From Candidatus Ozemibacteraceae bacterium (lineage in GTDB: Bacteria > Muiribacteriota > Ozemobacteria > Ozemobacterales > Ozemobacteraceae), in assembly GCA_937998695.1 (NCBI GenBank), contig CALLCO010000089.1, positions 1 to 46,759 of the forward strand: 46,759 nt of DNA, read 5' to 3'. Made by a program: the position numbers and the translations under genes. Shown piece by piece: positions 1 through 39,420 of the stretch (positions are counted from its first letter, which is position 1; the number at the start of each line of letters is the position of its first letter). A model generated the notes under the pieces. That model ran no database searches, had not been told where the DNA came from, and saw only the letters and a program-made list of their open reading frames with translations.

Positions 1-276
1 TGGCCGGGGGGCCTGGGCCCCGGGGGGCACGGGAGCGGGACTGCCGGGCGACCGGGGAGCCTGCGGGATGCCCGTCGGCAGCCCAGGCCGCTGCAGGGGG
101 CGCGGCGCGCCGGGCGGGGTGGGAGGGGCCGCCCCGGGGGCGCCGGGCGGACGTGGGGCGCCGGGCGCGGCGGGGGGCTGCCCCGGGGCGCGCGGCGGCG
201 TCGGCGCCTCGGGTTTCCCTTCTTCAGGGGGGGCGTTCCCGAACAGTTTGCCGAAAAACCCGTCGTTGTCGCTCAT
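1..276 (-). CDS. N-terminus of a proline-rich protein, cut by the window edge
   Basis: The minus strand is open from an ATG at 276 to the window edge, giving 92 residues. It starts MSDNDGFFGKLFG, a short amphipathic N-terminus, and then becomes a Pro/Ala/Gly-rich stretch resembling a disordered linker. The start lies 11 nt after the stop of the GspE-like gene (288-1949), so the two are probably co-transcribed and may serve the same pilus or secretion function. No domain is recognisable because the C-terminal part is outside the window. Low-complexity GC-rich DNA can look open by chance; the tight spacing and sensible N-terminus argue that it is real. Confidence 0.6.
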   Translation of the reverse strand, partial: MSDNDGFFGKLFGNAPPEEGKPEAPTPPRAPGQPPAAPGAPRPPGAPGAAPPTPPGAPRPLQRPGLPTGIPQAPRSPGSPAPVPPGAQAPRP

Positions 277-287
277 CGCTCAATCCA

Positions 288-1949
288 TCAGAACAGGCGG
301 AGGAACTCGTCGAGGCTGGTCTCGCCAGCGGCCACGAGCCCCAGGCAGCGGTCTTCGAGCGTGGGAATGCCCTGTTTGCGGGCGAACTGGAAGAAATCCT
401 GGTAGCTCTGGCGGTTGATCATCATCTGCCGCAAGGCCGGCGAGGTGGGCAGGAACTCGGAGATCAGCGTCCGGCCGATGTACCCGGTTTTCTGGCAACT
501 TTCGCAGCCGACCGCCGCCATTGGTTTGATCTCGGTGGCGAGCCCGGCCAGTCGCTCCTGGATATCGTCGGGCAGGGTGGCGGGGCGCCGGCAGGCGGGG
601 CAGAGGGTGCGGATCAGGCGCTGCGACTGGAAGCCGCACAGCGACGAGGCCACCACGACGGGGTCGGGCGACATCTCGAGCAGGCGCACCACGCTGCTGG
701 GGGCGTCGTAGGCCATGAACGAGGTCAGGATCGTCTTGCCGCCCAGGGCGGCGAAGGCGATCTCGCGGGTGACCTCATGGTCGGCCAGATGATCGAGGTA
801 GATGACGTCAGGGTCGAGCAACAGCGCGAGATCGACCCCTTCCTGGTGGCTGCCGACTCCGGCCTGCCCGATCTGGATCTGGGTCAGGCGGGGAATCGTG
901 CACTGGACGGGGTTCTCGACGGTGACGATCTTGCGGGCCTCGGTGTCAAACCCGTTGAGCAGGAAATACTGGGTCGTGGTCCGGCCCGATTCCCGGGGGC
1001 CGGTGACATAGAGTATGCCGTGGTTTGTGCGCAGGAAGGCGGCCAGTTCCTCGAGGCGGGCCTTGCAGGCCTTGCCGATCTTGTCGTCGATGTTGGTGAA
1101 ATCGCTCAGTTTGAGGATCACCATCTCGCCGTGGATGGTCGGGTAGAAGATGGCCTGGATGTTGATCATCCGGCCGGCGACGTTGACCCGGAAATGGCCG
1201 ACGCTCATGCCGTGCTGCAGGCCCTGGGTGGGCGGGATGGCGGCGAACGTCTTGAGCTTCCCGATGATCTCCTGGTGGACCTTGAGCGGGATCTCGACCT
1301 TGCGTGTGAGCGTCGAGCTGCTGCGGAACCGCACCAGCACCCCTTTCTCGGATGGCTCGAAATGGATGCGGTCGACCTTGCCGATGATGGCCTGCCCGAG
1401 GATGTAGTTGATGACTTTCTCGGGCGATTCCATCCCCTTGGGGATGCGGCGCTCCTCGATGAGCTGCTTGTCGGGCTGGGCGGTGATCTCGCCGCCGACC
1501 TTGTCGTCGCCTTCGAGCGGCCCGTAGATGGCCTTGTAGGTCTGCTCGAAATCGAACTTCGTGCAGATCGAGACCGAGATCTGCATCTGGGTCTTGCTGG
1601 CCAAGTAGTCGATGGGATCGGACTCGAGCGGGTCGACCATGCAGACGCTGAGCTGGTTGCCCGCCTGGTACAGCGGGATGATGCGATGCTCGCGCGCGAA
1701 TTCGGGCGTCAGGATCTTGATCACGTCCCGGCTGACGATGTCGGGATTCAAGTGGATGAACGAGATGTTCAGCTGGTTGCCCAGGGCCCAGATGATGTCG
1801 TCCTCGGTTACGAGGCCGAGTTCGATCAGGGCGGCCCCCAGTTTGAGCCCGCGCTCCTTCTGGAACCCCAGGGCCTGTTTCAGCTGGTCCTGGTTGATCA
1901 GGTTGCAGTCGATGAGGATGTCACCGAGACGTTTCTTCTGGGTACTCAT
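288..1949 (-). CDS. GspE/PilB-family protein with degenerate ATPase site and tandem MshEN motifs
   Basis: 553 aa, counted from ATG 1949 (MSTQKKRLG). Residues 7-30 and 36-59 are two 24-residue MshEN-type motifs (RLGDILID.., KLGAALIE..) separated by exactly five residues, the layout of the c-di-GMP-binding N-domain of MshE. A T2SSE-type core follows (IHFEP at 195-199). In the C-terminal ATPase domain every nucleotide motif is altered: Walker A at 317-325 reads GPRESGRTT with Arg replacing the invariant Lys; the Asp-box region reads ENPVQ in place of EDPVE; Walker B at 379-390 reads DPDVIYLDHLAD, lacking the GE of GEIRD; and the His box reads GKTILTSFMAYDA without its histidines. The tetracysteine zinc motif is kept (C450, C453, C482, C485). 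Family membership is clear; loss of ATPase activity is inferred. It could be a regulatory subunit of a pilus or secretion motor. Confidence 0.85.
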   Translation of the reverse strand: MSTQKKRLGDILIDCNLINQDQLKQALGFQKERGLKLGAALIELGLVTEDDIIWALGNQLNISFIHLNPDIVSRDVIKILTPEFAREHRIIPLYQAGNQLSVCMVDPLESDPIDYLASKTQMQISVSICTKFDFEQTYKAIYGPLEGDDKVGGEITAQPDKQLIEERRIPKGMESPEKVINYILGQAIIGKVDRIHFEPSEKGVLVRFRSSSTLTRKVEIPLKVHQEIIGKLKTFAAIPPTQGLQHGMSVGHFRVNVAGRMINIQAIFYPTIHGEMVILKLSDFTNIDDKIGKACKARLEELAAFLRTNHGILYVTGPRESGRTTTQYFLLNGFDTEARKIVTVENPVQCTIPRLTQIQIGQAGVGSHQEGVDLALLLDPDVIYLDHLADHEVTREIAFAALGGKTILTSFMAYDAPSSVVRLLEMSPDPVVVASSLCGFQSQRLIRTLCPACRRPATLPDDIQERLAGLATEIKPMAAVGCESCQKTGYIGRTLISEFLPTSPALRQMMINRQSYQDFFQFARKQGIPTLEDRCLGLVAAGETSLDEFLRLF

Positions 1950-2067: not shown

Positions 2068-2358
2068 TTAGCGGTTCTTCTTGTTGGTGTTGATGATTTC
2101 CTTCAACTCTTTGCCGGGAACGAACTTGGCGACCTGGGTGGCGGGAATGGTCATCGGGCGCTTGGTTTGGGGGTTGACGCCCGTGCGGCTCCGGCGGGTG
2201 GTCACCTTGAAGGAACCAAAACCGACCAACCGGACTTCCTCGCGCTTCTTCAGCGTGTTCTTGATGATGTTGATGGTGGCTTCGAGAGCCTGGGTGGCCT
2301 GGGTCTGGGTCAGGTTGGCGGTCCGGGAAATTTCCCTCACGAGTTCGATCTTTTTCAC
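2068..2358 (-). CDS. hup: HU-family DNA-binding protein
   Basis: Nucleoid protein that binds and bends DNA as a dimer. The GTG start at 2358 is set by a strong TCCTCCT complement (2368-2374; AGGAGGA on the coding strand) nine bases upstream; the longer ATG reading adds unrelated residues. The 96-aa product has the usual HU length and layout: an N-terminal helical part (MKKIELVREISRTANLT), the GFGSF turn, and the flexible DNA-binding arm with RTGVNPQTKRPMTIP, whose proline is at the expected tip. Its own sigma-70-like promoter (2408-2436) lies upstream. HU versus IHF cannot be settled from sequence alone, but the arm is typical of HU. Confidence 0.93.
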   Translation of the reverse strand: MKKIELVREISRTANLTQTQATQALEATINIIKNTLKKREEVRLVGFGSFKVTTRRSRTGVNPQTKRPMTIPATQVAKFVPGKELKEIINTNKKNR

Positions 2359-2407
2359 TGGGTGGTATCCTCCTGTTGAAAAATTAGATTTGGAGAACGA
2401 TAGAAGG

Positions 2408-2436
2408 ATATTACCCATCCGAAAGCCGCCCGTCAA
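2408..2436 (-). promoter_or_regulatory. Sigma-70-type promoter of HU
   Basis: Coding-strand TTGACG (2436-2431), 17-bp spacer, TAATAT (2413-2408). The -10 box ends 49 nt before the GTG start, leaving a leader with an AT-rich stretch and the strong Shine-Dalgarno. Confidence 0.75.
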
Positions 2437-2469: not shown

Positions 2470-3780
2470 TTACCTGAGCCGGTTTCGGAGATCGGACATC
2501 CGGGCGGACAGGTGGCGGTGGTTGTCGCGCAGCACCAGGAGGCGGTTTTGCAGCTCGCCGATCCGCCAGGTGATCTGCTCCAGGGTCATCCCGTCGCCGG
2601 CGGGGGCCCCCCGAACGGTGGTGCGGGGGCGGCCCAGGTCCTCGGCCTTCTTGACCAGGGCGCGCCGTTCGGCGTCGACTGCGGCAAACTCGTTCTGCAC
2701 CTGGACCAGCCGCTCCTCGGTGCGGCGCATCTCCTCGCGCAGCATCCGCTCGTCCTGCACGCCGGTGGGGGCGGGGGCGGCCTGGCCGGTCAGGCGGCCG
2801 TGGCCCTGGCGCGTGACGTCGTGCCAGCCGGGAGGATCTTCGCGTCCGAAGGGCAACCCCGGGTAAGGCGACCGCCAGGCGGGATCGGGCAGGTGCGGGG
2901 CTGGCCGACCCGGCGCGCGCGACAACCGCTCGCGGTCACGTATCCGGTGCTGGCGGAGGTTTTCGAAGAAGTTCAGGCGGGTCCGGATGTCGGGGCTTTC
3001 GTCGATGGTGTCGACGCGCTCGCCGGGGGTGGTGCTGGGGCCGACCCCTTCCGTCAGCGGGACGGGCTGTCCGTCGGGCCCGAGGGTGCGAAGCTGTCCG
3101 GGCAACGTCGGGCGGATGGGCGGCAGGCCCGGCCGCTCGGGGCCGATCTTGGCGGGGCCGGTCGGCGCCTGGGCGTTCCAGGCCTTCTGGAGCTGGTCTT
3201 CCAGGGCGCCGGCGTCGAATTTCTGGGTCTGCTCGCCGGTGAAGCCGCGGTCGCGGACGCTGGTCTGCATACCGCGCTGCAACACGATCTGCCGGCGGCG
3301 CTGGTCGTCACGGGCCCGCACGCCGACGATCCCTTCGAACACCCGCACCTGGGTGCGGCCGAACTTGTCGACCGCGACGTCGAACGTGGTGCCGAGCACC
3401 GTGCAGATGGTGGTCGGGGTGACGACCTGGAAGGGCTTCCCCTGCTGGCGCAGGCTGAACCACGCCTCCCCGACCTGCAGGAGGGCCCCGTCGGGCAGCA
3501 CGGTCAGCAGCGTGTCGGGCTGCAGCCGGAAGCGGCTGCCGTCGGGGAAACGCAGTTCCCCCCGGCTCTCCCCCTCGGTGCGCAGCAGGTCGCGCACCTT
3601 GACGGCGACGGGCTCGGGGCCCAGCGCCAGCCAGGTCGAGCCCCCGGTGCGCGACAACGAGGCGCGCCCCCGCTGCACCTGGAAGGACAGCGCTCCCGGG
3701 GTCTGAGCCTGGACAGAACCGGCGGCGAAACACGCCAAGAGGGCGATCACGAGCAAAAGCGACGCGGTGCGAACGTGCAT
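2470..3780 (-). CDS. Exported FecR-domain protein with C-terminal coiled coil
   Basis: 436 aa. The start ATG 3780 follows a GGGAGA ribosome site. Residues 1-25 are a signal peptide (LLLVIALLACFAAGSVQA). Residues about 30-160 match the FecR domain: the sequence runs from RGRASLSRTGGS through FPDGSRFRLQPDTLL to TTICTVLGTTFDVAV and VRVFEGIVGV. A Pro-rich linker follows (about 200-330), and the last 90 residues are a charged heptad-like helix (EEMRRTEERLVQVQNEFAAV) ending in an Arg-rich tail. In classical systems FecR relays a signal between a TonB receptor and an ECF sigma factor; neither is nearby, so a periplasmic structural or envelope-sensing role is as likely. An extended -10 element (3811-3819) lies upstream. 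Confidence 0.8.
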   Translation of the reverse strand: MHVRTASLLLVIALLACFAAGSVQAQTPGALSFQVQRGRASLSRTGGSTWLALGPEPVAVKVRDLLRTEGESRGELRFPDGSRFRLQPDTLLTVLPDGALLQVGEAWFSLRQQGKPFQVVTPTTICTVLGTTFDVAVDKFGRTQVRVFEGIVGVRARDDQRRRQIVLQRGMQTSVRDRGFTGEQTQKFDAGALEDQLQKAWNAQAPTGPAKIGPERPGLPPIRPTLPGQLRTLGPDGQPVPLTEGVGPSTTPGERVDTIDESPDIRTRLNFFENLRQHRIRDRERLSRAPGRPAPHLPDPAWRSPYPGLPFGREDPPGWHDVTRQGHGRLTGQAAPAPTGVQDERMLREEMRRTEERLVQVQNEFAAVDAERRALVKKAEDLGRPRTTVRGAPAGDGMTLEQITWRIGELQNRLLVLRDNHRHLSARMSDLRNRLR

Positions 3781-15948: not shown

Positions 15949-18852
15949 ATGGTAGAGGAAACTCCTTCGACTCCCCCGCCGGCGACCGTTTCGGCACCGC
16001 CCGGCACGCTCGATCTGAACGCCTGGCTGGCCTTCAGCCTCGCCTCGCCCGAAGAGGCCGAGCGCCGGCTTGCCCTCGACGAGATCGGCTTCCAGGGGCT
16101 GGCCGATGCCTTCGCCGACGACCTGCGCCGGCTGGCGGCCACCGATCCGGCCGAAGCCTGCCGCACCTTCGCCGCGCGTCTGCTCGAGCGGGCCCGCCAG
16201 CCGGCCGCGGTCCGGCCGGTCGAGAAGATCGAGTTGACGCCCGAACGCACCCGCGCCCTCCTCGAGGTCGGCGAGGATACCCTGCAGCAGGTCGTCCTGC
16301 GCTCGCTGCGCAAGGCCCCGGCCCAGGAGATCCTCGACACCTGGCGGGCCCATCTGCCCGGCGAAGAGAACCCCGAGGTCATCGGGGTCGGCCTGACCCT
16401 GCTGGCCCGCCACGGCAAACCCGAGGATGCCGATTTGGCCATGCTGTTCTCGTCCCATCCGTCGGTTCCCGTCGTCAAGGCGGCCATCGATCTGTTCCAC
16501 GGCCAGAACCCCGGCCAGTTCAAGGAGGGCATCGTCCGGTTCCTGGTCTCAGACGACCTCGAGATCCGGTTGCACACCATCCGGAAGCTGCGCACCTTCG
16601 ACCCGCGCGAGGCGCAGACCTACCTGCGGTCGCTGCTGGCCGCCCGCAACCCCTTCATCCGGCAGCGGGCACTGCGCGAACTGCTGCTCGTGCCGTTCGC
16701 CGAGAGCGAAGCCCTCTATCTCGCCTACCTGGCCGCCGAGCCCCTTCCCCTGTTGCTGGTGCTGGCCGGCTCGGCGGTCGCCATGAACCCCGCCCCCGAC
16801 CTGCCCCAGAAACTCTACGACGTCTTCTTCTCGGCGCGCGATCTGCGGGCCCGCATCCTGCAACTGGTCATCAACCAGCTCCTGGCCAGCATCAAAGCCT
16901 CCGGCATCCTCGACGTGCCGATCGAGACCTACCTCGAAACCCTGAAGGCGACCCTCCAGAAGCGCAAACTCTGGATCACCGCCCGCATGGCGCTCGCCGA
17001 CCTCGACCATGCCGACCCGGAGGTGCGTATTGCCGCCATCGGGAAGCTGAGCCAGGCCCGGCAATTTCCCAAGGTGCAGGACGCCTTGGAACAGCGCGAC
17101 GCCGTCGAGACGGTCGAGGAGGTGCGGGAAGCCCTCGCCCAGGCCCTCGGCCGCGAGAAGGAATCCTTCACCATCGCCGGTTTCCGGGCCAAGATCAAGG
17201 ATGGCAGTTTCTACGGGCTCGACCCCAAGGTGCAGAAGAAGTTCGTCGGTACCATCACCGATGAAGATACCTTCCGGGATGCCCGCGACATCATCGGCAT
17301 CGCCGTGGTGGCTGACCTCGACCGCGGGGTCTTGCTGCAACTGCTCGACCGCATCGCGGCCCACGGCCGGCAATGGGACCCCAAATGCCTGTTCCGCTTC
17401 CTGAAAAGCGAAGATCCGGGCATTCTGGCCGGTGCCTTGCGGGCCATTGGCCGTCTCGATCTCGACTCCATCGCCTACGAGATCCCCAACCTGCTGCGCC
17501 ACGACGATTTCCGGGTCAAGATGGCCGCCCTCGAATTGTATCTGGTGTCCGACAAAACCAGCGCGTTGCAGTATCTGATCGGCATGCTGAAAGCCCCGTC
17601 GGTCAAGATCCGCAAGAATGGATTGTCGCTGCTGGCGACGGTCGATTACCCCTCGGCCGAACGGATCCTGCTCGACTACTTCCCCGTCGAGAAGAACCTC
17701 GAGGCCAAACTGCAGGCCGGATTCATCCTGGCGGCCAACCCCACCCTCGAAGGCATCCAGGTCTTGTATGCTGGGTGCCATGACGACCAGGGGGTGGTCC
17801 ATCCCGCCTTCCAGGATCTGTGGGAAGGCGCCCTCGAGGCGGCGGTCCCTCTCCTCGCTCCCGATGCCGCCACCCTGCTGGCTGGTTGTCAGACCCGCCG
17901 CACCGCCGAACAGACGGCGGCCGCGGCCGAACAGCCGACCTACGCGTTCAAGAAGGTCACCGCCTCCACCAACAAGAACCTGTTCGCCGAACAGGATTCC
18001 CAGCCCGCCGAAGGCCTGGGCGCCGAGCTGCGGGTTCCCGAACCCCAGGAGGCCTTCGACAAGGCCGCCGGGGTGGTCGAGCGCTACCGCATGCCTCTCG
18101 CCGCCGCGGCCGTGGCCTTGCTGGCCGGCGGGTTATGGTGGCTGGCCGGCGATCGCCTCCTCGGTCCCGGCAGCGGTAGCGGGTCGGCCGTTGTCCATGA
18201 ATCGAGGGCCAACCGCATGGAAGAAGGCAGCCGCGATGTCCCTGCCATGGTGGCCGGTCGGCGCGGGGGTCCCACCTCCTATGTCAGCGGGCGCGGCTAT
18301 GCCCAGGTCATGAAGGCGATGGATACCGAGCGGCAGTCGATATCCGAGGAGTTCCACCGCAAGAACAAGCAGGCCCTGCGCGAGGTCCTGATGCAGATGC
18401 TCGACGACCCCAACTATAAGGGGTACGGCGAGTTCTATCTCAACGAGAACTGTGCCAAGGGCATGGAAGCCCTCGATCAGGGCGACCTGCCCGAAGCCCG
18501 GACCTCCCTGCGCAAAGCCCTCGAAGACCCCTCCATCTCGGAGGAAGCCCGCGTCATCGTCTGCCAGGGTCTGATGCAGATCGGCTTCGAACTGGGCGAC
18601 AAGGAGTCCCTCCAAAAGGCTCTCGAAACCTTCCTGGCCACCATCCCAGAGGGGGAACTCCCCAAGGGATATGATAAGATGAGTGTGAAGGAGGCTTTTG
18701 CGGGCCTCGACCGGCTGCACGAGGTGACCCCCGAGCAGTACAAGGTAATCCTGCAGACCCTGGCCCAGAAGCATCCCGGCAAGGTTCCCCCGGCCATGCA
18801 GGAACAGATGCTCGAAGGGTTCAAACAGATGCAGAACCGTTTCAAGAAATGA
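15949..18852 (+). CDS. HEAT-repeat protein with a C-terminal membrane anchor and TPR-like tail
   Basis: 967 aa. ATG 15949 follows AGGGGA. Residues about 20-640 are consecutive HEAT-type helical pairs (for example VRIAAIGKLSQARQF, IRLHTIRKLRTFDPREAQTY, VKMAALELYLVSDKTSA, VKIRKNGLSLLATVD). A single membrane segment lies near 715-735 (MPLAAAAVALLAGGLWWLAG), preceded by a linker, so the HEAT scaffold faces the cytoplasm if inserted N-in. The final 200 residues are helical with TPR-like pairs (GMEALDQGDLPEARTSLRKA). It is the first of four tightly spaced genes with three pilin-type genes, suggesting a scaffold or inner-membrane assembly factor for that machine. No catalytic motif seen. Confidence 0.8.
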   Translation: MVEETPSTPPPATVSAPPGTLDLNAWLAFSLASPEEAERRLALDEIGFQGLADAFADDLRRLAATDPAEACRTFAARLLERARQPAAVRPVEKIELTPERTRALLEVGEDTLQQVVLRSLRKAPAQEILDTWRAHLPGEENPEVIGVGLTLLARHGKPEDADLAMLFSSHPSVPVVKAAIDLFHGQNPGQFKEGIVRFLVSDDLEIRLHTIRKLRTFDPREAQTYLRSLLAARNPFIRQRALRELLLVPFAESEALYLAYLAAEPLPLLLVLAGSAVAMNPAPDLPQKLYDVFFSARDLRARILQLVINQLLASIKASGILDVPIETYLETLKATLQKRKLWITARMALADLDHADPEVRIAAIGKLSQARQFPKVQDALEQRDAVETVEEVREALAQALGREKESFTIAGFRAKIKDGSFYGLDPKVQKKFVGTITDEDTFRDARDIIGIAVVADLDRGVLLQLLDRIAAHGRQWDPKCLFRFLKSEDPGILAGALRAIGRLDLDSIAYEIPNLLRHDDFRVKMAALELYLVSDKTSALQYLIGMLKAPSVKIRKNGLSLLATVDYPSAERILLDYFPVEKNLEAKLQAGFILAANPTLEGIQVLYAGCHDDQGVVHPAFQDLWEGALEAAVPLLAPDAATLLAGCQTRRTAEQTAAAAEQPTYAFKKVTASTNKNLFAEQDSQPAEGLGAELRVPEPQEAFDKAAGVVERYRMPLAAAAVALLAGGLWWLAGDRLLGPGSGSGSAVVHESRANRMEEGSRDVPAMVAGRRGGPTSYVSGRGYAQVMKAMDTERQSISEEFHRKNKQALREVLMQMLDDPNYKGYGEFYLNENCAKGMEALDQGDLPEARTSLRKALEDPSISEEARVIVCQGLMQIGFELGDKESLQKALETFLATIPEGELPKGYDKMSVKEAFAGLDRLHEVTPEQYKVILQTLAQKHPGKVPPAMQEQMLEGFKQMQNRFKK

Positions 18853-36671: not shown

Positions 36672-37868
36672 ATGAGCACACCCACCATCTTCACCTCCGG
36701 CCTGGAAGGCAAGTCCGACCTGATCGTGACCTACGATCCCGCCGCCCCCTTCGAGGTGGTCGTCGAGTCGAGCGTCAAGAAGCTGTTCGGTCGCCACATC
36801 CATGAGCGGGCCGAGAAGACCCTGCAGGAGTTCAACGTCAGCAAGGGCCGCCTGGCCATCAAGGACGATGGTGCCCTCGACTTCATCATCGCCGCCCGCA
36901 TCGAGGCGGTGCTGCGCAAGGCCGGGGTGGCCAAGCCCCTGCCGTTCTCCCCGGTCAATCGCACTCCCACCGAGAAAGACCGCCTGCGGCGCAGCCGGCT
37001 CTACCTGCCGGGCAATCAGCCCGATCTGATGCTGAACGCGGGGCTGTTCGGGGCCGACAGTTTGATTTTCGACCTCGAGGATTCAGTCGCCCCCGACCAG
37101 AAGGTCGATGCGCGCATCCTGGTGCGGCGCATCCTGGGCGAGGCCCACCGGCTGTTCCCCGGTTCCGAGCTGATCGTGCGGGTCAACCCGCTCACCGGGC
37201 CGTTCGGCTACGAAGACCTGCACGAGATCGTGCCCGCCCTGCCCCACTTGCTGCTGCTGCCCAAGTGCGATGGCGAGCACGACGTCAAGGAGGCCGACCG
37301 CGAGGTGACGGCCATCGAGCGCGAGTTCGGCCTGCAGGGGCGGGTCATGTTCATGCCCCTGATCGAGACGGTGAAGGGAACGGTCAACGCCCAGGCCATC
37401 GCCCAGGCGACCGGCCGCAACGTCGCCCTCTGCTTCGGGGCCGAGGATTTCACCCGCGACCTCGGGGTGCCGCGCACCCGCGAGGGGAAGGAGACCCTGG
37501 CGGCGCGCAGCCAGATCGTCTATGCCGCCAAGGTGGCCGGCATCCAGGCCATCGACACCGTCTTCTCCGACGTGGGCGATGACCAGGGGTTGCTGCAGAG
37601 CTCGCTCGAGGCCAAGAGTCTGGGCTTCGTCGGCAAGGGGGTCATCCACCCGCGCCAGATCGCCCTCGTGCACCAGGCGTTCGCGCCCACCGCCGCCGAG
37701 ATCGAAGAGGCCCGCAAGATCGTCGAAGCCATGCAGAAGGCCGTCGAGACGGGGGCTGGTGTGGTCGCCCTGGGGTCGAAAATGGTCGATGCCCCGGTGG
37801 CCGAGCGAGCCCGCCAGGTGATCGCCCTGGCGAAACAGCTCGGTCTACCTGGCGTGGAGGGCCTCTGA
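36672..37868 (+). CDS. citE: Citrate lyase CitD-CitE fusion
   Basis: 398 aa. Residues 1-90 match the acyl carrier subunit CitD: LEGKSDLIVTYDP, VVVESSVKKLFGRHI, and KDDGALDFIIAARIEAVLRK. The site that carries the phosphoribosyl-dephospho-CoA group is normally the Ser of LES(G/S)D; here the region reads LEGKSD, so the Ser (S15) is shifted. Residues about 105-395 are CitE (citryl-CoA lyase, releasing oxaloacetate): RSRLYLPGNQPDLM, GADSLIFDLEDSVAPDQK, LIVRVNPL, and CFGAEDFTRDLG. CitD and CitE are usually separate chains. Followed after one base by citF. Confidence 0.9.
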   Translation: MSTPTIFTSGLEGKSDLIVTYDPAAPFEVVVESSVKKLFGRHIHERAEKTLQEFNVSKGRLAIKDDGALDFIIAARIEAVLRKAGVAKPLPFSPVNRTPTEKDRLRRSRLYLPGNQPDLMLNAGLFGADSLIFDLEDSVAPDQKVDARILVRRILGEAHRLFPGSELIVRVNPLTGPFGYEDLHEIVPALPHLLLLPKCDGEHDVKEADREVTAIEREFGLQGRVMFMPLIETVKGTVNAQAIAQATGRNVALCFGAEDFTRDLGVPRTREGKETLAARSQIVYAAKVAGIQAIDTVFSDVGDDQGLLQSSLEAKSLGFVGKGVIHPRQIALVHQAFAPTAAEIEEARKIVEAMQKAVETGAGVVALGSKMVDAPVAERARQVIALAKQLGLPGVEGL

Positions 37869-37869
37869 C

Positions 37870-39420
37870 ATGCACTGGGTCGAGAATGCCCTCGGCCGCA
37901 AGATCCCGGCCGAGATCGACGGGCGGCCGCTGAAGCCGTTTCGGGGTGCCTTCCAGGATCAGGGCGGGGGGCGGCAGGCGGCGCCACGGGTGCCGCTGAC
38001 GACCGTCCCCGGCCGGGTCGACAAGGTGGTCGGCAGTTGGGACGAGTTGTGGCGCCGCCTGCCCCTGCGCGATGGCATGACGGTGTCCTTCCACCATCAT
38101 CTGCGCAATGGCGATTTCATCGTCAACGAGGCGATGCGCCGGCTGGCCGAGCGGGGCCTGAAAGATCTGGTGGTGGCCCCGTCGGCGCTCTTCCCCGTGC
38201 ATGACGGCCTGGTCGAGCTGATCAGGAGCGGCGTCATCTCGCACGTCGAGGGGTCGATGAACGGCCAGGTCGGCGTCGCCTGCTCGAAGGGCCTGATGAA
38301 GAAGACGGCGGTGCTGCGTTCGCACGGCGGCCGGTACCGGGCCATCCAGGATGGTGACCTGAAGATCGACCTCGCCATCATCGCGGCGCCAGCCGCCGAT
38401 GTCTTCGGCAACGCCAACGGCGTGCTGGGGCGGTCGGCCTTCGGGCCGATCGGCATCGCCAAGGCCGACTCGCTCTACGCCGACCGGGTGGTGGTGGTGA
38501 CCGACAACCTGGTCCCCTTCCCCTGCGTGCCGATGTCGATCTCGGGATTGCATGTCGATCACGTGTTGACCGTCGATACCATCGGCGACCCCACCAAGAT
38601 CGTCTCGGGCACCACCAAGATCACCCGCTCGCCCACGCAGTTGCAGATTGCCGAGCTGGCCGCCCGCTTCGTCGAGGCGGCTGGCATCATGCGCGACGGG
38701 TTCTCCTTCCAGGCGGGCGCCGGCGGCATGTCGCTGGCGTTCACCAAGTTTCTCGGCGAGCGGATGGCCGAAAAGAAGATCAAGGCCTCGTTCGTCATCG
38801 GCGGCACTACGCAGTTCCTGGTCGACCTGTTGAACCGCGGCCTGATCGACGTGGTGACCGACGGGCAGAGTTTCGACCTGACGGCGGTGCAATCGTTGCG
38901 CGACAATCCGCGGCACGTCGAGATCGACCCCTTCGTCTCCTACTGCCAGCACGCCCGCGGCTGCTTCGCGCACATGCTCGACGTGGCGGTGCTGGGCGCC
39001 ACCGAGATCGACCTCGATTTCAACGTCAACGTCAACACCCATAGCGACGGTCTGCTCCTGCACGGCATCGGCGGGTTCGCCGATGCGGCGGCGGGGGCCG
39101 GCTGCACGATCATCACCGCGCCGTCATTCCGCAAGCGGATCCCGGTGCTGCGCGAGCGGGTAACCACGGTTACGGCGCCGGGCGAGGTCATCGACGTGGT
39201 GGTGACCGAGCGCGGGCTCGCCATCAACCCCCGCCGCCAGGACCTGCTGGAGAAGGTGCAGGGGAAGGGGCTGCCGCTGATCACCCTGCCCCAACTGATG
39301 GACCAGGTCCACGCCCTGACCGGCATCCCCGAATCGCCCCGGCTCGGTGAACGGCCCGTCGCCGTCATCGAGTGGCGGGACGGCTCGATCATCGACGTCG
39401 TCCGCCAGGTGCTCGATTGA
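37870..39420 (+). CDS. citF: Citrate lyase alpha subunit (citrate:acetyl-ACP transferase)
   Basis: 516 aa, starting one base after the citDE stop. It transfers the acyl-carrier group from acetate to citrate, enabling cleavage of citrate to acetate and oxaloacetate. Conserved CitF stretches: VSFHHHLRNGDFIVNEAM, SGVISHVEGSMNGQVG, APAADVFGNANGVLG, MRDGFSFQAGAGGMSLAF, and EIDLDFNVNVNTHSDG. Length is typical. The complex needs the ligase CitC and the prosthetic-group enzymes CitG and CitX, none of which are in the window. Anaerobic citrate fermentation is the known role. Confidence 0.95.
   Translation: MHWVENALGRKIPAEIDGRPLKPFRGAFQDQGGGRQAAPRVPLTTVPGRVDKVVGSWDELWRRLPLRDGMTVSFHHHLRNGDFIVNEAMRRLAERGLKDLVVAPSALFPVHDGLVELIRSGVISHVEGSMNGQVGVACSKGLMKKTAVLRSHGGRYRAIQDGDLKIDLAIIAAPAADVFGNANGVLGRSAFGPIGIAKADSLYADRVVVVTDNLVPFPCVPMSISGLHVDHVLTVDTIGDPTKIVSGTTKITRSPTQLQIAELAARFVEAAGIMRDGFSFQAGAGGMSLAFTKFLGERMAEKKIKASFVIGGTTQFLVDLLNRGLIDVVTDGQSFDLTAVQSLRDNPRHVEIDPFVSYCQHARGCFAHMLDVAVLGATEIDLDFNVNVNTHSDGLLLHGIGGFADAAAGAGCTIITAPSFRKRIPVLRERVTTVTAPGEVIDVVVTERGLAINPRRQDLLEKVQGKGLPLITLPQLMDQVHALTGIPESPRLGERPVAVIEWRDGSIIDVVRQVLD

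Follow-up and report, generated by a model that had tools for sequence, protein, structure and literature searches.

The window analysed here is a 46,759-nt stretch of contig CALLCO010000089.1 (assembly GCA_937998695.1), from a Riflebacteria genome that belongs to the Candidatus Ozemibacteraceae, a family of uncultured bacteria, and groups with Candidatus Ozemobacter. At its start, all on the minus strand, lie the beginning of a pilT gene, a gene for a degenerate relative of the PilB/GspE motor ATPases (hereafter pseudo-PilB), and two upstream neighbours:

1..276, minus strand: 5' part of pilT, the partner gene, coding for residues 1-92 (MSDNDGFFGKLFGNAPPEEGKP... and a Pro-rich tether); the contig end cuts the gene, which is complete in relatives
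288..1949, minus strand: gene for pseudo-PilB (553 aa, then stop); the 21 orthologues retain the start Met and are full-length
495..602, minus strand: zinc tetracysteine of pseudo-PilB (C450, C453, C482, C485), present in 21/21 orthologues
2068..2436, minus strand: HU-family DNA-binding protein (Pfam PF00216), upstream neighbour, order conserved
2470..3780, minus strand: FecR-domain protein (Pfam PF04773), upstream neighbour, order conserved

Gene and domain architecture

The pseudo-PilB reading frame is open throughout, and its product is laid out as an MshEN domain (residues 1-145), a linker, an N2 domain (~175-299) and a C-terminal domain of ATPase fold (300-553). Pfam recognised T2SSE (1.7e-55) and MshEN (7e-14). 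With T2SSE, MshEN/N1 and N2 domains and a zinc tetracysteine that is intact, as the initial annotation of this DNA had stated, the protein belongs to the PilB/GspE sequence family; PilB, PilF and GspE are its nearest solved structures. Its scores fell far below the NCBIfam equivalog cut-offs for GspE (258 vs. 630 bits) and PilB (245 vs. 676 bits) and above the cut-off for the MshE-type c-di-GMP motif (59.5 vs. 38). The source genome holds 28 T2SSE matches (fragments included), among which pseudo-PilB is one of the weaker full-length ones. The HU and FecR genes also lie upstream of pseudo-PilB in most orthologue loci.

A second odd paralogue was noted elsewhere in the same genome (L009:1474-2982, minus strand, contig C36): a 502-aa protein that joins the first PilC-type T2SSF repeat (12-99) to a GspE/PilB-type T2SSE domain (122-494) in which the Asp box reads ESTIG and Walker B reads GDIPD, both altered. 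Further along the window, on the plus strand, we found a 967-aa ORF with HEAT repeats (15949-18852), a 379-aa ORF with a prepilin-type N-methylation signal, thus another pilin-like protein on the same contig (22131-23270), and citrate lyase genes (36672-39420). Among the latter, a 398-aa protein matches both the acyl-carrier (gamma) and HpcH/HpaI (beta) lyase families, an apparent fusion, and is followed by the alpha subunit CitF.

Loss of catalytic residues

Residues conserved across the motor family, named in Geobacter PilB as E395, E357, R271, R286, H413 and H420 (McCallum et al. 2017, PMC5424180), were mapped onto pseudo-PilB through a PDB alignment. We assumed that the chain numbering equals the native numbering plus 20, an offset that places a Glu, Arg or His at each named position. 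The window protein retains none of the family's seven catalytic residues (the Walker A Lys, the Asp-box Glu, the catalytic Glu, two arginine fingers and two His-box His), each being replaced:

978..1001, minus strand: degenerate Walker A GPRESGRT, residues 317-324, with K to R at 323; Arg in 20/21 orthologues
903..917, minus strand: remnant of the Asp box, ENPVQ (residues 345-349), lacking the second Glu (E357, here Q349), as do 20/21
780..794, minus strand: remnant of Walker B, DHLAD (residues 386-390), lacking the catalytic Glu (E395, here H387), as do 21/21
714..743, minus strand: former His box GGKTILTSFM, residues 403-412; K405 and M412 replace both His (H413 and H420) in 21/21
1155..1157, minus strand: Q265 in place of arginine finger R271; Arg in 0/21
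1110..1112, minus strand: K280 in place of arginine finger R286; Arg in 0/21

The initial annotation had listed four altered nucleotide motifs, all of which stand (GPRESGRT, ENPVQ, DHLAD and a His box without His); the loss of both arginine fingers goes beyond them. Its description of the Asp box as changed from EDPVE to ENPVQ is right for the second Glu, but the exchange of D for N is not general, with D kept in 12 of 21 orthologues. No orthologue retains the catalytic Glu, either of the arginine fingers or either His, which makes five of the seven catalytic residues; the Walker A Lys and second Asp-box Glu are each missing from all but one. The Walker A Lys is retained in the most divergent orthologue (G011, 44% identity), which suggests that the catalytic residues may have been lost stepwise. 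With seven positions replaced and the degeneration conserved in 21 orthologues, the earlier proposal of a pseudo-ATPase is strongly supported, and the window protein almost certainly is one. G317, P318, S321, G322 and T324 of the P-loop are invariant among the orthologues, as is the new GGKT, so that nucleotide binding without hydrolysis is conceivable.

Orthologues and selection

A protein search over 57 genomes, 23 of them from other members of the family, recovered a full-length pseudo-PilB orthologue in 20 of these 23 Ozemobacteraceae genomes (one clear copy each, 44-93% identity); the three genomes without one are 64%, 70% and 82% complete. The gene is carried by Candidatus Ozemobacter sibiricus BY5 (93% identity), as well as by a Riflebacteria MAG (85%), a MAG filed as bacterium (74%) and an Ozemobacteraceae MAG (69%). 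Beyond the family, the top matches in the 57-genome search were ordinary PilBs with at most 33% identity, and in the tree a long branch divides the 21 pseudo-PilB orthologues from active PilBs (SH-aLRT 93).

Pairwise dN/dS among the orthologues ranged from ~0.04 to 0.29. Because these values are well below 1, we consider pseudo-PilB a maintained protein. Purifying selection persists in its C-terminal domain, where 48 positions besides the zinc cysteines are invariant. A decayed pseudogene is ruled out by the 20 full-length orthologues and the low dN/dS, and a sequencing error or chance ORF by the family-wide conservation together with the same ratios. The survey of homologues, which the initial annotation had proposed as a check, upholds its view of a degenerate GspE/PilB paralogue: the degeneration is common to all 21 orthologues and the substitutions recur across them, with the Asp-box D to N as the exception.

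The MshEN domain as a putative c-di-GMP sensor

Three features of the N-terminal region bear on ligand binding:

1860..1931, minus strand: MshEN motif I, residues 7-30 (RLGDILIDCNLINQDQLKQALGFQ), fits the extended consensus except for Asn at position 10
1773..1844, minus strand: MshEN motif II, residues 36-59 (KLGAALIELGLVTEDDIIWALGNQ), begins 5 residues past motif I and fits the extended consensus except for Ile at position 17
1632..1634, minus strand: D106, equivalent of MshE D108 in the 5htl alignment, invariant in 21

The extended consensus comprises two 24-residue motifs, (R/K/L)LGxx(LVI)(LVI)xxG(LVI)(LVI)xxxxLxxxxLxxQ, joined by a 5-residue spacer (PMC11731258). In pseudo-PilB the spacer is exact and each motif matches 10 of 11 key positions. 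Both motifs had been called intact in the initial annotation; this holds for the spacer but not for motif I position 10, where Asn replaces Gly, nor for motif II position 17, where Ile replaces Leu. The Lys that opens motif II in place of Arg (Lys36) had also been pointed out and is present, but lies within the extended consensus. Position 10 of motif I is N or S in every orthologue, and Asn occurs there too in some active Riflebacteria PilBs. Position 7 of motif II, normally hydrophobic, is Ser, Ala or Thr in several orthologues.

Reported contacts with c-di-GMP are made by position 1, L2, G3 and the last Gln of each motif, and by MshE D108, a residue able to contact the guanine amino group. 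The alignment with 5htl places window residues 4-109 on chain residues 6-111 (sequence match 2.9e-15). The predicted c-di-GMP contacts (R7/L8/G9/Q30, K or R36/L37/G38/Q59 and D106) are all kept, and across 21/21 orthologues each of these positions, the two terminal Gln and D106 among them, shows either no change or a conservative exchange. With all direct contact residues kept, it is plausible that the window protein senses c-di-GMP, and we infer that pseudo-PilB would bind it. The source organism probably makes c-di-GMP, given 17 GGDEF matches in its genome.

Within pseudo-PilB, conservation peaks in the MshEN bundle, a pattern that active PilBs from these genomes do not share. Specifically, mean pairwise identity among the 21 orthologues was 78% in the first 66 residues (the region of the four-helix bundle) vs. 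57% in the ATPase domain; the corresponding figures for two orthologue sets of active PilBs were 92/90 and 77/81. Constraint has thus moved from the motor to the putative sensor.

Structure prediction was another of the checks proposed at the outset. An AlphaFold2 model of residues 1-150 (pLDDT 74) has the four-helix bundle and the C-terminal subdomain, and its best PDB match was MshE with c-di-GMP (5htl; E 1e-8, probability 1.00, TM-score 0.42); the modest TM-score probably reflects uncertain placement of the two subdomains relative to each other. The full-length model (five sequences) reached a pLDDT of 46, too poor for judging the ATPase fold.

Association with PilT

PilT is the next same-strand gene after pseudo-PilB in 21/21 loci. 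In 18 of these loci PilT starts -1 to +13 nt from the pseudo-PilB stop, and the remaining three have gaps of 24-140 nt. All 18 complete partner PilTs show PilT homology, with Walker A, Walker B and His box intact and both Glu present in the Asp box; in one of them the Asp of that box is His. They carry a Pro-rich N-terminal extension that opens with M(S/A)DNFFGKLFG or similar. That pseudo-PilB partners PilT is well supported by this context. The earlier suggestion that the protein regulates a pilus or secretion motor also gains support from it, with the PilT of the next gene as the likeliest motor. A second, ordinary PilB-PilT pair is encoded elsewhere in the source genome (C259), and the ordinary active pair of the same genomes has the same pilB-pilT gene order, so adjacency alone could be inherited.

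The flexible tether of the partner PilTs (window 1-276, minus strand; L086:1303-2736; L131:1438-3300) ends in a short aromatic/basic motif, which is N-terminal in Ozemobacteraceae (FFGKLFG) and C-terminal in another phylum (DWMKVFGKRK, SWMQVYGRKK). We considered these short motifs (FFGKLFG near the N-terminus; EEDWMK(V/I)FGK at the C-terminus) as docking sites for the MshEN partner and set the idea aside, since a similar tail persists where MshEN and PilT are fused.

MshEN partners of PilT in other lineages

A genome of another Riflebacteria family (G028) encodes a 197-aa protein, made of an MshEN domain and a short tail, whose gene overlaps that of such a PilT by 1 nt; its MshEN is nearest to those of pseudo-PilB. 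In six genomes of another phylum (G051, G068, G080, G085, G086, G088), an MshEN protein directly precedes a PilT, which is followed by a second PilT. The ~300-aa body of this MshEN protein matches no ATPase model. It might conceivably be a still more degenerate PilB, although the collinear match seen on comparing profiles was weak (E 0.18, probability 0.3%). A similar MshEN protein occurs in G075 with no adjoining PilT. In G087, MshEN and PilT are combined in one protein (Pfam MshEN 81-164, T2SSE 226-502). To our knowledge, known PilTs lack an MshEN domain, and this fusion has one attached. No MshEN-PilT fusion was found among 13 genomes of two further small phyla.

In the tree, the MshEN-partnered PilTs form one clade, separate from ordinary PilTs (SH-aLRT 86). 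This clade includes HEAT-PilT fusions that lack MshEN (G029, G034, G037), 917-aa ORFs with a long N-terminal HEAT-repeat-like region before PilT (L207, L208, L209), which are apparently another regulatory fusion to PilT. What these lineages share is an MshEN domain that adjoins a particular PilT or is joined to it in one protein, while the partner's ATPase portion is dead, replaced or absent. Motif I of the other phylum ends in Ala or Ser instead of Gln, which makes c-di-GMP binding there doubtful, and the sensor role may not be general. For comparison, exchange of a motif-ending Gln in Thermus PilF (Q190E) reduced affinity to about the level of MshE and did not abolish binding.

Interpretation

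The simplest account of these observations is a regulatory subunit of the retraction motor that, at least in Riflebacteria, carries a putative c-di-GMP sensor. The account draws on the catalytic loss, the purifying selection, the linkage to PilT, and the ATPase-less and fused relatives. More fully, pseudo-PilB would be a PilB that lost catalysis and was retained in a regulatory role. It would be co-produced with the product of the adjacent gene, an intact PilT retraction ATPase specific to it, and through MshEN it most likely binds c-di-GMP, which would relay the signal to this PilT and alter pilus retraction. We give this reading roughly an even chance (about 0.5). Engagement might occur by way of the PilB-like body that the protein still has, which could dock on the PilC platform or on the motor ring, or by way of MshEN itself. 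We infer physical contact between pseudo-PilB and PilT, and c-di-GMP could turn retraction up or down. More tentatively, and with somewhat less than even odds, the relatives may together represent a new regulatory module of type IV pili, a PilT subfamily whose retraction activity c-di-GMP controls directly by way of its own MshEN partner, which takes the form of pseudo-PilB, a stand-alone MshEN, an MshEN with another body, or a PilT fusion.

The main rival holds that the pseudo-subunit joins active PilB rings or competes for the PilC platform, giving c-di-GMP-responsive control of extension, and that the PilT link is merely inherited pilB-pilT gene order. This would fit the similar order of the ordinary pair, the many active PilB-type ATPases and several PilC-type platform proteins in the genome, and the selection on the C-terminal domain, whose zinc cysteines and invariant positions are expected if a PilB-like shape docks. 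However, with both trans-acting arginine fingers gone, pseudo-PilB cannot complete a neighbour's active site; moreover, G028 retains the MshEN part only, G087 fuses MshEN to PilT rather than PilB, and the partner PilT belongs to a distinct clade. We therefore regard extension control as unlikely, if worth serious attention.

Rather improbable, in our view, is a passive scaffold or platform cap that neither catalyses nor senses c-di-GMP and instead localises or stabilises the partner PilT, possibly by way of a protein-protein surface on MshEN. MshEN can be a protein-binding site, as the N-terminal domain of Xanthomonas PilB binds PilZ (PMC8389850; 7lkm-7lko). The most conserved stretch of pseudo-PilB, DIIWALGNQLN, contains an invariant Trp that is absent from active PilBs of these genomes, and motif I position 10 and motif II position 7 are off consensus in many members. 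The preservation of the reported c-di-GMP contacts in every orthologue argues against a purely passive role. Very improbable is a protein that still acts as an ATPase via a rearranged active site, using the Walker A Arg or the GGKT: the invariant P-loop residues and the Lys of G011 make nucleotide binding imaginable, but the five residues lost from every orthologue are fully or highly conserved across the motor family (PMC5424180). The retraction-regulator reading has a wider meaning. Known MshEN-type c-di-GMP control of type IV pili targets the extension motor, and a conserved dead PilB with ATPase-less relatives, tied to PilT, suggests a second control point on the retraction motor. The full pseudo-PilB, MshEN alone and the MshEN-PilT fusion form a natural pseudoenzyme series in which the idea is testable with purified proteins.

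Comparison with known systems

Earlier work has described MshEN domains, their fusion with other enzymes, and degenerate c-di-GMP receptors that act on PilB (PMC5013675, PMC8389850). Our search of the open-access literature, with most hits judged by title and abstract, found no description of pseudo-PilB or of an MshEN-PilT pair or fusion, no paper combining PilB, PilT and pseudo-ATPase, and none on a catalytically inactive PilB paralogue; the paper that first presented the MshEN structure does not mention 'PilT' in its main text.

Pseudo-PilB shares with the extension ATPases MshE, PilB and PilF the domain order (MshEN, N2, zinc-tetracysteine ATPase fold) and the c-di-GMP contact residues. 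Unlike them, it has the seven catalytic residues replaced, conservation shifted to MshEN, and an obligate PilT neighbour. With regard to PilT/PilU, the partner is a canonical PilT, and PilU offers a precedent for a second ATPase-family protein that aids PilT in retraction (PMC11656802); the window protein differs in being PilB-derived, MshEN-bearing and, by prediction, catalytically dead. FimX, in the FimX-PilZ-PilB system, is likewise a catalytically degenerate c-di-GMP sensor acting on a type IV pilus motor (PMC8389850), with sensing being predicted in our case; in contrast to pseudo-PilB, its fold and ligand domain are GGDEF-EAL and its target is the extension motor PilB. Finally, the NfrB-type MshEN glycosyltransferases show that MshEN is a portable c-di-GMP module outside extension ATPases (PMC5013675). 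There the target is a glycosyltransferase, whereas that of the window protein is most likely PilT, reached in trans, or by fusion as in G087.
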